Positions 25,650-49,369 of a DNA stretch of 64,000 nucleotides are shown in pieces; the stretch's first letter is position 1, and the number at the start of each line of letters is the position of its first letter. Position numbers and translations under genes: made by a program. The stretch is from Roseivivax sediminis (GTDB lineage: Bacteria > Pseudomonadota > Alphaproteobacteria > Rhodobacterales > Rhodobacteraceae), in the NCBI RefSeq assembly GCF_900112685.1, contig NZ_FOMS01000003.1, positions 186,001 to 250,000 of the forward strand, in the 5' to 3' direction. The notes beneath the pieces were generated by a model, which was not told the origin of the DNA, did not search any database, and saw only the letters and a list, made by a program, of their open reading frames with translations.

Positions 25650-29947
<4,298 letters not shown>

Positions 29948-29978: not shown

Positions 29979-29993
29979 GTTCTTAAAAAGTTC
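29979..29993 (+). promoter_or_regulatory. LexA (SOS) box, GTTC-N7-GTTC
   Basis: The sequence is GTTC TTAAAAA GTTC, an exact match to the direct-repeat LexA operator known for alphaproteobacteria. It lies 32 bases after the recG stop and 58 bases before the start of a 36-residue membrane protein. TTTACA directly after it (29994-29999) could be a -35 element. A good -10 is not obvious. Confidence 0.75.
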
Positions 29994-30051
29994 TTTACAT
30001 GGCGTGGAGTGATGTGAGAACAAAGTGGCAACAGATATGTTGGAGGTTGTA

Positions 30052-30162
30052 ATGCACAGCAGGATCAAGTTCGCGCTTCGTCAACCCGAGGCCCTGATCG
30101 TACAGGACGCGTTCGGAGCTTTGGCGCTTGTCGTCATGCTCTTTGCCGGCCTCCATCTCTGA
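30052..30162 (+). CDS. 36-residue membrane microprotein under a LexA box
   Basis: An ATG at 30052 follows GGAGG (30042-30046) at ideal spacing. The peptide has a basic N-terminal part (HSRIKFALRQPE) and a hydrophobic C-terminal helix (about residues 22-36), so it is predicted to be a single-span inner-membrane protein. A perfect LexA box sits upstream and an intrinsic terminator downstream, making it a self-contained SOS-type unit. In Caulobacter the SOS-induced division inhibitor SidA is also a tiny single-span protein. I see no sequence proof of homology, so a SidA-like role is inference. Confidence 0.75.
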   Translation: MHSRIKFALRQPEALIVQDAFGALALVVMLFAGLHL

Positions 30163-30293
30163 TGCGGTTTTCTGCCTGCGTCGCTCGTCCCTGAGCCTTT
30201 TATCCGTGTGTCCCCAACGCGCGGGTTCGGCCGATACGGTCTGTCCCCCGTTACGCCTCTTGCCGGCCCGGGTTTCACGAGAGACGCCCCTGA

Positions 30294-30333
30294 CCGCCGC
30301 CGTCGCGCTGAACGCGACGCGCGGCGGTTTTTT
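30294..30333 (+). terminator. rho-independent terminator after the SOS microprotein
   Basis: A long GC stem (CCGCCGC-CGTCGCG, loop CTGAA, CGCGACGCGCGGCGG with one bulge) is followed by TTTTTT at 30328-30333. It terminates the plus-strand transcript, and its U-run overlaps the stop of the convergent chemoreceptor gene. The 131 bases between the microprotein and this hairpin hold no other gene that I can support. Confidence 0.85.
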
Positions 30334-31750
30334 ACATCCGATAGGCCAGTCGAAGTCCGCCCCAATGGCGCCCCTGCACGCGGATCGGCGCGGAGAGATC
30401 CTTCATCATCACGAATTGCCCGCCGCCCATGTCGCGGCGATAGATCTGCAGTAGGAACGGTTCCGTGTTGCGCCCAGCCTTCAGCCCGACACGATCGTCA
30501 AAGATCCGTCGGTTCCTGCAATTGGCCGCGTTCCAGACGGGATCGGTCGATTGCGGCTGCGAGAACTTGCGGTTGTGGGTGGGCAGGTAGCCGTTGCGAT
30601 CGACCGCGGCGCAGAACACCACCTTGGAATGGCGGGCGAGAACGGGTTCCTGGATGTCTGGCAGAATGGCGTCGGTCAGTTCGGTGAATGCGGTTGTCAC
30701 CTGCTGCGGATCGGTCTTTGGAACGGGGCGATAGTCTGTGTCGAACAAGCGAGCGAGGCTGATGCGGCCCCGGGCGAGGGCCGCTTCGAAAGCCTCCGAG
30801 ATCTGGCCGGCAAGGTCCTGCACGAGCGTGATCATCGGGCCGTCAGCGCCTTCGGACCCCAGTTGCACGGCCTTTTGCATCACTCCTTCCGATACGTCGA
30901 TCAGCGTGTCGCTGCGCTGCTTGGCCTCCTTGACGCCGGTCGACACCCCCGAGATCGACCGCGCCACCTCCGAGATCGCGGGCGAGAGCCGCTCCACCGT
31001 CGTTTCCGTCTTGCCCACATGCGTGCCGATCTCCTCGGTCTCGCGCTTCATGGCGCTCATCCGCATCTCGATCTCCGACAGCGCCGCGTCGGTGTCTTCG
31101 CCGCGATTCAGCAGCTCCGACGCCACTTCGGAGGTGTCGACCGCTCCCTTCCGCAATTCGTTCATCCAGTCGGTCATGCGGCCGATGGTCGTGGAGATAT
31201 CCGCCGCGGCGGTGCTGGTCTTCTGACTCAGTTCGTTGATCGCCTCCGCCACGATGGCAAAGCCCATTCCCGCCTGTCCGGCGCGCGCCGCCTCGATCTT
31301 GGCGTTCATCGCGAGAATGTTGACCTGGGAGGCGATGGAGGCGATCTGCGCGTTCGAGTTGCGCACGGCCACGAGCATGTCGTCGACCGCGTCCGAACCG
31401 GAGCGTACGGATTGCACCCATTCGGCGAGCGCGCGGGACGAACCGCTGGTAGCCGACAGGATCGCGATGGAGTCCTTCACGCCGCCTTGAGCGGCATCCA
31501 TATCCTCGATCACGCGGCGCGTGGTCTGGCCGACCCGTCGCGCGGAGTCGCGGAGATCGTCCGTCTGTTCCTGCAGGGATTGCAACCGATGCATCTGTTC
31601 CGAGCCGCTGGCGTCGAGGTCGGTCAGGAAGCCCGCTATGTCCACCAGTTCGCGCCCCAGCGAGGTCGCGTCGTCCGACAGCCCCTTGAGAATGTTCGCC
31701 GTGACGTGGGGTTTGCCGAGATCGGTGTCGTGCTGCATCCGGGCGCTCAC
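30332..31750 (-). CDS. soluble methyl-accepting chemotaxis-type protein
   Basis: A 472-residue protein without transmembrane helices. Residues about 30-330 form the long signalling coiled coil, with the hairpin tip ILAMNAKIEAARAGQAGMGF. The C-terminal 110 residues are a separate sensor-like domain (NRRIFDDRVGLKAGRN, then FLLQIYRRDMGGG). The tip differs from the canonical ALNAAIEAARAGE..GRGF. The start is GTG 31750 or ATG 31738, neither with a strong ribosome-binding site. It is probably a cytoplasmic receptor or a non-chemotaxis MCP-like signalling protein. Confidence 0.85.
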   Translation of the reverse strand: MSARMQHDTDLGKPHVTANILKGLSDDATSLGRELVDIAGFLTDLDASGSEQMHRLQSLQEQTDDLRDSARRVGQTTRRVIEDMDAAQGGVKDSIAILSATSGSSRALAEWVQSVRSGSDAVDDMLVAVRNSNAQIASIASQVNILAMNAKIEAARAGQAGMGFAIVAEAINELSQKTSTAAADISTTIGRMTDWMNELRKGAVDTSEVASELLNRGEDTDAALSEIEMRMSAMKRETEEIGTHVGKTETTVERLSPAISEVARSISGVSTGVKEAKQRSDTLIDVSEGVMQKAVQLGSEGADGPMITLVQDLAGQISEAFEAALARGRISLARLFDTDYRPVPKTDPQQVTTAFTELTDAILPDIQEPVLARHSKVVFCAAVDRNGYLPTHNRKFSQPQSTDPVWNAANCRNRRIFDDRVGLKAGRNTEPFLLQIYRRDMGGGQFVMMKDLSAPIRVQGRHWGGLRLAYRM

Positions 31751-47352: not shown

Positions 47353-47409
47353 CGTGAATGATCGTTCAGCTTGGTTTGGTGCAGAATACCGGAAATCGCC
47401 TCAGTTCAC

Positions 47410-47423
47410 TTGATACAGATCAA
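47410..47423. promoter_or_regulatory. FNR/CRP-family box, TTGAT-ACAG-ATCAA
   Basis: The 14-base palindrome matches the FNR-type consensus TTGAT-N4-ATCAA exactly. It lies in the divergent gap between the HTH-antiporter genes (minus) and the first universal stress protein gene (plus, ATG 47490). A -10-like TATGCT/TTGTAT around 47441-47451 would place the box near -37 to -41 for the plus-strand gene, fitting class II activation. Confidence 0.8.
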
Positions 47424-47489
47424 GTCGAAGATGTTTGTTCTATGCTTGTATCAGGTACGCGATCGCCTGCTGGCGAAGAAGGGAACGAC

Positions 47490-48365
47490 ATGAAGCGGAT
47501 CATGCTGGCCACCGATTTCTCCGAAAGATCGGACCGTGCGCTTCGGCGTGCGACACTGCTCGCCCATCGGTCTGGCGCCTCGGTATTGATCCTCAATGTC
47601 GTCGACGATGATCAACCGTCTCGGGTCATCAACAGCGAGCGTAAGGTGGCGGCGGCCCTCCTGGGGGAATTGCAGGGGACAATGCGAAGCGTCGATGGCG
47701 TTTCGTGCGAGACCCGTGTTGAAATTGCCGATCCATTTGTCGGGATCGCGCAGGTCGCCGAGGAGGAACGCCCGGACCTTCTCGTTCTTGGGCCGCATCG
47801 ACGGCAAACACTACGGGATGTTTTCGTGGGAACGACGGCGGAACGAACGATCCGATCCGTCAGCTGCCCGGTACTCATGGTAAATGCGCCGCCGATGGGG
47901 AGCTATCGTCACGTTCTGGTCGCGACGGACCTGTCCGATGCAGCGATGAAGATGGCCAAGAGTTTTATCGCGTTGGGCATAACCGGCACGGCGCTCACGT
48001 CCTTCGGACATGTCTACCAGACGCCCGGCGAACGTCTGGCCATGAGCCATACCGTGCCGGTGGACGACCGAGAGGCTTATCTCGAAGAGATGCGGAAGGA
48101 GGCCGAAAGTGATCTCGCAGGCTTCGTGAAGACACTCGGCTCTAGCTCGGAGCGCCAATACGTCCGTCGCGGATTGCATGCGCCGGCAGAGGAGATCTTG
48201 ACCCTCGCGAGAGAGGAAGCGGCTGATCTCGTTGTTGTCGGAACACTCGGTAGAAGCGGCCTTGCGAAATTCTTCCTTGGCAGCGTGGCAGAGGCCGTAC
48301 TCCGTGCCGCTGATCGGGATATACTCGCGATTCCGCCAGAATCTACAGCTGGAATGGCCACCTAA
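47490..48365 (+). CDS. tandem-domain universal stress protein
   Basis: A 291-residue protein with two UspA domains, residues about 1-145 (begins MKRIMLATDFSERSDRAL) and 150-290. The second keeps the ATP-binding pattern (VVVGTLGRSGLAKFFLGSV). The start at 47490 follows AAGGGA, and a frame reaching to 47358 runs through the FNR box and is rejected. The upstream FNR-type box suggests induction at low oxygen. Confidence 0.9.
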   Translation: MKRIMLATDFSERSDRALRRATLLAHRSGASVLILNVVDDDQPSRVINSERKVAAALLGELQGTMRSVDGVSCETRVEIADPFVGIAQVAEEERPDLLVLGPHRRQTLRDVFVGTTAERTIRSVSCPVLMVNAPPMGSYRHVLVATDLSDAAMKMAKSFIALGITGTALTSFGHVYQTPGERLAMSHTVPVDDREAYLEEMRKEAESDLAGFVKTLGSSSERQYVRRGLHAPAEEILTLAREEAADLVVVGTLGRSGLAKFFLGSVAEAVLRAADRDILAIPPESTAGMAT

Positions 48366-48547
48366 CCGCCTTGCGGCCATGTGAGGCACACCGATTGGCG
48401 GCGTCAATAATGTGGGGCGGGCAAGCGCTCTGACGTATGTGCCATAGCCGCAGACCGGAGGGCGTTGCCTCGCAAATGCCTGGAGGAGGACGCCATATCG
48501 GTCCGGTGCTCGGCGCAAACGACACTTCCAAACAGGAGAAACAAGCG

Positions 48548-49369
48548 ATGCGAAAGATTCTTGTGTGTTCCGACCTTTCCGACCGCTCGCACCATGCGCT
48601 CGTGCGGGCTGCTCAGCTGGTGCGGAACCACTCTGCATCGCTAATAATCTGCTCAATCGTGGATGATGACTTGCCGCCAAAGATGGTCGACACGTTAAAG
48701 CGTGAGACCGCTGAAGGCTTGACCCAGGCATGTAGATCTCTTGGGCATGACGATGCCGAAATCGTTGTGGAGGTTGGAGAGCCGGTCGCCGCCATTATGG
48801 CCATCGCGTCCCGGGTCGATGCTGACATGCTCGTGCTCGGCACACACCGTCATCGCCCGCTCTGGGACCTCATCTACGGAACAACAATGGAGAGACTCGT
48901 GCATGCAAGCCGCCTGCCGGTTCTCCTCGTACCCAATCCTGTAACAGCAGCATATTCGCGTGTTTTGGCAGGGGTCGATTTCTCTCCGGCAAGCGAAGCC
49001 GCGTTGAGGTTGGCCAACCTCATCGCTGCGTCTGCAAAATTTACGACGTTCCATGCCGTGAATGTCCCCGCGCCGGGCTGGTTCGGGGGAGCGAGCGATT
49101 CCGATGAAATCCGATCGTTGACAAAGGAAGCCGAGAATCAGCTTTCGGCTTGGTGGCAGGAGCGGGAACTCCCCGAAGAGATAGCTCGTCCTGTTGTCAT
49201 CCCGAAATCGTTGCCCGAAGCCTTTCGAGAGATGAGATACGAGGTGAAGCCGGATTTGGTTGCGATCGGCGCGCATGGGCGTTCCGGATTCATGCAAGGC
49301 TCGCTGGGGAGCTTCACCGAGGCGATCATCCGCTGGCAGTTCTGCGACGTCTTGGTCGTCAGAGCTTGA
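48548..49369 (+). CDS. tandem-domain universal stress protein
   Basis: A 273-residue double UspA protein, beginning MRKILVCSDLSDRSHHAL. The C-terminal domain contains VAIGAHGRSGFMQGSLGS, the nucleotide-binding pattern. AGGAG precedes ATG 48548. It is a paralogue of the gene 180 bases upstream. The gap holds no clear FNR box (TTGGCGGCGTCAA at about 48393 is one base short of the spacing), so it may depend on the upstream promoter. Confidence 0.9.
   Translation: MRKILVCSDLSDRSHHALVRAAQLVRNHSASLIICSIVDDDLPPKMVDTLKRETAEGLTQACRSLGHDDAEIVVEVGEPVAAIMAIASRVDADMLVLGTHRHRPLWDLIYGTTMERLVHASRLPVLLVPNPVTAAYSRVLAGVDFSPASEAALRLANLIAASAKFTTFHAVNVPAPGWFGGASDSDEIRSLTKEAENQLSAWWQERELPEEIARPVVIPKSLPEAFREMRYEVKPDLVAIGAHGRSGFMQGSLGSFTEAIIRWQFCDVLVVRA

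Follow-up and report, generated by a model that had tools for sequence, protein, structure and literature searches.

A conserved SOS-type transcription unit behind recG in Rhodobacteraceae combines a predicted membrane microprotein with a structured 3' RNA

The window analysed here, a stretch of 64,000 nucleotides (nt) of Roseivivax sediminis (contig NZ_FOMS01000003.1, positions 186,001 to 250,000), carries a short transcription unit behind recG (27857-29947, NCBIfam NF008164 match), in which an SOS-type promoter, a microprotein gene and a structured RNA domain were recognized. The exact LexA box GTTCTTAAAAAGTTC (GTTC-N7-GTTC; 29979-29993, + strand) overlaps a possible -35 element, CTTTAC (29993-29998), and a second, inverted operator-like site, GAACAAAGTGGCAAC (30018-30032, - strand), with one mismatch to GAAC-N7-GAAC, is expected to sit near the -10/start region of the promoter. 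The Shine-Dalgarno sequence GGAGG (30042-30046, + strand) precedes the microprotein gene MHSRIKFALRQPEALIVQDAFGALALVVMLFAGLHL (30052-30162, + strand), composed of 36 codons and the stop TGA, which is followed by a domain of about 130 nt in the 3' untranslated region (UTR; 30163-30293, + strand) and by an intrinsic terminator (30294-30333, + strand) with a GC-rich hairpin starting at 30294 and six T's at 30328-30333. The initial annotation of this DNA had proposed a self-contained SOS-controlled unit made of the box, the GGAGG, the frame and the terminator, all of which lie where it had placed them; that description was incomplete, as both the second operator-like site and the structured 3' UTR had been missed.

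The occurrence of the microprotein was examined in related genomes, whose genera we take to belong to the Rhodobacteraceae. Single-sequence tblastn with the 36 residues reached only 12 of 61 genomes, so a profile was needed. The first profile (12 rows) matched the microprotein in 249/296 Rhodobacteraceae genomes, with one match per genome apart from two genomes (G077 and G116) with two each. A wider profile of 66 rows, applied to 20 of the 47 unmatched family genomes, matched eight, and the promoter pattern matched 11 of 23 genomes (those 20 plus three from the same genus), with a related frame at nine of the 11. Five of the 289 genomes of a class-wide sample were matched by both profiles, all five from the same family; the 264 non-matching genomes of this sample were taken together, without listing by family. 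The same microprotein was present in a same-genus genome (G002) and in Roseivivax marinus.

The substitution pattern was that of a translated gene. Differences among 60 close pairs numbered 538, 335 and 1036 at codon positions 1, 2 and 3, respectively, and codons with a single change gave a synonymous to non-synonymous ratio of 716:275. For 42 equal-length members the coding score was 2.03 in the proposed frame, versus 0.40 and 0.06 for the remaining two forward frames, with values of 0.26-1.06 on the opposite strand. Judged by this codon pattern, the frame of 36 codons is a genuine gene under clear protein-level constraint; together with the profile matches, this supports the translated membrane microprotein of the initial annotation, whose frame proved to be conserved among relatives and so withstood the refuting condition, lack of conservation, which that annotation had set. 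The protein resembled no catalogued family: none of the 66 members matched Pfam, a single chance-level match was obtained among them in NCBIfam (PurR, E 0.0048), PHROGs gave no family match, and no plasmid or phage match was found for the gene.

A total of 75 loci from different genomes were opened, of which 36 were chosen by tblastn or best profile scores, 30 for weak scores and nine by box pattern, mid-scoring family genomes being left out. The recG gene lay directly 5' of the unit in 72 of these loci, an SD-like (Shine-Dalgarno-like) string was present at positions -16 to -4 in 71, and a terminator was called by rule in 67. The exact box stood no more than 160 nt ahead of the start in 68/75 loci (59/66 of those found by protein alone), as compared with 0.07% of 2710 control windows; with one mismatch allowed it was detected in 73/75 (64/66 protein-only), two loci (L045 and L063) having none. 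The second site, GAAC-N7-GAAC in the opposite orientation with at most one mismatch, was likewise found in 73/75 loci, versus 4.6% of control windows, and the start-to-start spacing between both sites was 38 bp in 52 of the 64 loci measured.

These recurrences decide against the trivial explanation that chance placed a short hydrophobic frame next to a LexA-like box in a GC-rich genome. The box alone is no evidence, because 1.38 exact matches are expected per window; two were seen, a number reached by 42 of 100 shuffles, and the other match (47830-47844, - strand) falls inside a long frame. This frame is the first of two adjoining ones at 47358-49369 (+ strand), which we take to resemble universal stress proteins. 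In the whole genome 95 exact boxes were counted versus 47 for the reversed pattern, so that many of the 95 must be chance matches. Against this background stand the cross-genus conservation, the codon pattern and the fixed spacing and synteny; since the combination of box, frame, terminator and position behind recG is seen again and again in the opened loci, as expected of a self-contained unit, chance is refuted.

The same box marks other SOS loci of this genome. It lies 32 bp before a LexA match and also precedes recA, as well as an error-prone DNA polymerase and a PcrA/UvrD-like helicase, the frames of the latter two being cut by the edge and scoring below the curated cut-offs. Two further boxes precede frames that we take to be ImuB-like and MmcB-like proteins, neither with an NCBIfam match at 1e-20. 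Thus, the unit has what a member of the alphaproteobacterial LexA regulon would show, namely GTTC-N7-GTTC over its promoter in a genome that encodes LexA and has this box at known SOS genes as well, and its promoter appears to be of the SOS type, as the initial annotation had it, with two operator-like sites. As side observations, one exact box (L118; G000:C11:14709-14723) stands 51 nt before a frame of 147 residues, the one taken for an MmcB-like DNA-repair protein, and two frames that resemble radical-SAM proteins and may be further SOS genes have exact boxes 28 and 17 nt ahead of them, at L120 (G000:C5) and L122 (G000:C10), respectively. In Dinoroseobacter, the reported LexA sites include lexA, pde2, flagellar genes, dprA, recA, the gene transfer agent (GTA) cluster and pilus genes (PMC6473078).

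A search independent of the protein was performed by scanning 84,980 species for the promoter pattern GTTCTnAAAAAGTTCTTTAC-N14-19-GAGAACAAA, which returned at least 118 stretches, 80 of them examined. The titles among the matches listed were Rhodobacteraceae genera or unnamed Rhodobacterales and alphaproteobacterial genomes. The microprotein frame was present in 78 of the 80 matches listed, both stretches without it being cut by the locus edge; recG was found no more than 400 nt upstream of the box also in 78/80, one exception being edge-cut and the other (L235) having no recG there. Five of the 78 frame-bearing loci (hereafter the named loci) were genomes already included in the first set. 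Among 30 recG loci from a 57-genome class-wide sample, box plus hydrophobic frame were observed behind recG only in one locus of the same family (L138); the reading of another (L132) is unreliable because its start lies close to the end of a contig. Within the samples searched, the unit was seen only in the Rhodobacteraceae, the family to which the initial annotation had assigned the microprotein.

The predicted proteins share a simple architecture. The collection comprised 148 distinct sequences (147 scored) with a median length of 40 residues; D/E-x-x-G was present in 147/147, charges were placed almost exclusively ahead of the helix, and a charged residue within or after the helix was found in only nine of 147, counts on which the filter for named loci bears, as it required hydrophobicity and a loose form of D/E-x-x-G. 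The AlphaFold2 model of the protein has helices at residues 3-10 and 12-35, with block pLDDT (predicted local distance difference test) values of 58, 74, 96 and 94 and a pTM (predicted template modelling score) of 0.41, consistent with a small SOS-type protein with one predicted membrane helix. In most relatives the helix ends in LxLP. Several same-genus copies (L001, L002, L003, L005, L007 and L080), of 36 residues, end in LHL or LHV and do not have the LPxxx end seen in most relatives.

A helix of this kind could also belong to a membrane-active peptide of the TisB/DinQ type, which would depolarise the membrane upon SOS induction and make the cells dormant rather than target the division machinery. 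The small size, the single hydrophobic helix, the SOS-type promoter and the long structured message would all suit such a peptide. However, the TisB helix bears spaced charges (D5, K12, D22 and K26; PMC8309996), and TisB-like action fits the helix described here badly because its charges are so rare; in addition, the gene is single-copy, occupies one chromosomal place in the family and has no plasmid or phage relatives among the matches. This explanation, the main rival for the protein, is thus considered unlikely.

The region between the stop codon and the terminator was analysed in 67 UTRs, after the eight of 75 loci without a rule-based terminator were dropped. In the window, a closing stem is formed by GCGUC (30178-30182) and GACGC (30283-30287), with an unpaired CUGCCU ahead of it and with inner arms, C-rich loops and a linker. 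CTGCCTG was present in 53/67 UTRs (3.3 expected under first-order resampling) and CTGTCCC in 47/67 (2.4 expected). Once the terminator hairpin was removed, the 67 cores folded below their shuffles with a mean z of -2.10, 33 of them under -2; the z of the window's own core was -2.29, and that of its whole transcript -2.43. In cores carrying CUGCCUGCG, its GCG paired with the core end in 42/44, and GUCC or UGCC was found in a hairpin loop in 56/67 cores.

Covariation was assessed by comparing the pairing of two strands within a species with that of strands from different species, a test that ignores phylogeny and from which 24 of the 67 cores were excluded for lack of an anchor. The strands of helix P2 paired at -15.6 kcal/mol in their own species versus -11.15 kcal/mol across species (z -10.1, n = 43), and those of P3 gave a z of -6.65 (n = 39); none of 2000 permutations reached either value, and controls gave z values of 0.21, -0.58 and -0.17. 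Both results were replicated on other genomes, for which 62 of the 78 named loci were kept (five shared, eight without terminator, two short and one containing N were dropped). The replication cores had a mean z of -2.76, with 42/62 under -2, versus -0.21 and 5/62 for equal lengths downstream; P2 and P3 covaried again (z -7.7, n = 28, and z -4.7, n = 26; 0/2000 permutations each; control 0.61), and a repeat on 66 cores including some shared genomes yielded -8.0 and -5.5. No match to the domain was found in Rfam at E values up to 5. The 3' UTR is thus, as far as comparative data tell, a conserved, covarying RNA fold with C-rich loops, followed by an intrinsic terminator, a layout that a DinR-like, trans-acting sRNA from a 3' UTR would show.

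Two explanations give this RNA another weight. Its covarying fold and C-rich motifs might indicate that the RNA is the main product of the unit, with the frame secondary, for instance stabilising or guarding the message through translation; the clear protein-level constraint on the frame, and its presence in 78/80 listed loci versus 41/78 for CTGCC[TA]GCG within 90 nt of the stop, make this quite improbable. The 3' UTR might otherwise act only in cis, by stabilising the message or, in the manner of hok, by folding back onto the leader of the same message and so adjusting translation. Its position in the same transcript, beside the terminator, where a stable fold might shield the 3' end, agrees with such a role, and plain message stabilisation is possible. 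Nevertheless, conservation extends to the unpaired C-rich parts, something that stability as such would not seem to require, and the ribosome-site region and the 3' UTR showed no preference for pairing within their own species (z -0.81; for the unpaired 5' segment, z +2.51; n = 45). The hok-like fold-back is accordingly not supported, and a role purely in cis seems unlikely on the whole. The conservation of the unpaired C-rich parts suggests a constant partner, either RNA or protein.

Downstream of the terminator, the next gene (30332-31750, - strand) resembles a methyl-accepting chemotaxis protein, with NCBIfam matches that are all below the cut-off and none clearly full-length. A similar gene was also observed 3' of the unit in 17 of the 75 opened loci.

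The reading that we prefer, to which we assign a probability of about 0.45, is that of a LexA-repressed SOS gene located behind recG in Rhodobacteraceae, with a single transcript and two products: a microprotein that probably brakes division and an RNA that probably acts in trans. LexA would occupy the promoter at the two oppositely oriented sites, and its self-cleavage, triggered by RecA, would release the production of an RNA of about 310 nt, the ends of which are placed from the promoter and terminator. This RNA would encode a protein of 36-40 residues, probably with the N-terminus inside, in which a single, mostly uncharged membrane helix follows a short start and a D-x-x-G turn. The helix may bind a late division or septal cell-wall protein and so delay division until repair is complete, as SidA does in Caulobacter. 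The folded 3' domain would expose its C-rich UGUCCC/CUGCCUG segments and most likely work as a trans-acting regulatory RNA, perhaps after cleavage from the message.

Several observations weigh against this reading. Regarding the protein, the division role, probable as it may be, is argued by analogy, and an N-side net charge averaging just +0.33 (147 proteins) speaks only faintly for an N-terminus inside. Regarding the RNA, the exact CUGCC[UA]GCG anchor was present in just 33 of 66 named-locus cores, which indicates that the RNA is kept less strictly than the protein. RNAalifold on MAFFT alignments recovered the terminator only and, on nine close rows, the closing stem plus three short helices; its support is small because the arms vary in length, for which reason the test of own- versus cross-species pairing was used. 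As for targets, the complement of the linker GGGACAGGCAG was found at 79 places in 31 genomes versus 118 for the reversed control, that is, without excess, and a blunt test of the ftsZ leaders from 10 genomes revealed no conserved pairing site, with all 10 leaning to stronger pairing by 0.02-2.2 standard deviations (SD) over composition shuffles. The more specific proposal, that of a family-wide LexA-controlled dual-function RNA, a single SOS transcript that would stop division at two levels, through the membrane microprotein at the septal cell-wall machine and through the conserved multi-loop 3' RNA with messages or an RNA-binding protein as its trans targets, is tentative.

The Rhodobacteraceae are a large, mostly aquatic family of bacteria, very common in the sea, for which, as far as the searches reach, no SOS division inhibitor is known to have been described. 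Here, an SOS-type membrane microprotein and a conserved structured RNA are joined in one transcription unit across the family. Most of the family genomes searched carry the microprotein gene, yet it is short enough to evade usual gene calling. With a conserved, covarying RNA inside a message of the LexA type, regulation of the SOS response at the RNA level would become testable in harmless strains that are easy to grow, and with clean genetics, because changes can be made in the start codon, in the 3' UTR and in the two operator sites one at a time. If the proposal is true, the dual-function RNA would serve as the main SOS checkpoint of the Rhodobacteraceae and would exemplify conservation, over a whole bacterial family, of an RNA directly controlled by LexA. 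The unit was not found described in the open-access literature, to which the search was directed; in the main text of PMC4809877, recG, LexA and SOS are absent.

The published systems closest to this unit are compared here. TisB (29 residues) and DinQ (27 residues) are SOS-induced inner-membrane peptides (PMC8309996), encoded by type I toxin genes of Escherichia coli, and share with the microprotein the single helix and the regulated message. The charges that run along the TisB helix are nearly always absent from the helix described here; no antisense antitoxin was seen, no dedicated search having been made, and the unit is near-universal and vertically kept in one family. The dicBF operon of an E. 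coli cryptic prophage, compared by description, also combines a small protein, DicB, with a small RNA (sRNA), DicF, both acting on division (PMC10448788); it is not known to be under LexA control. In Klebsiella, the sRNA DinR derives from the 3' end of the LexA-controlled dinI mRNA and blocks division (PMC10907235), so that there, too, the 3' UTR of a LexA-controlled message for a small protein holds a conserved or functional RNA; the ftsZ-pairing stretch of DinR lies in a variable, Klebsiella-specific part, whereas the fold described here covaries across genera and no target was found. SidA of Caulobacter crescentus, an SOS-induced protein of the inner membrane that has 29 residues and acts on FtsW (PMC4211646), is likewise a very small SOS-type membrane protein of an alphaproteobacterium, versus 36-40 residues here; a likeness in action is proposed by analogy, and the unit adds to it the structured 3' RNA and the fixed place behind recG. 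The unit was filed under neither SidA nor DinR, in the latter case because the linker and ftsZ searches gave no RNA target; by analogy, SidA would be the nearest functional counterpart of the microprotein and DinR that of the RNA.
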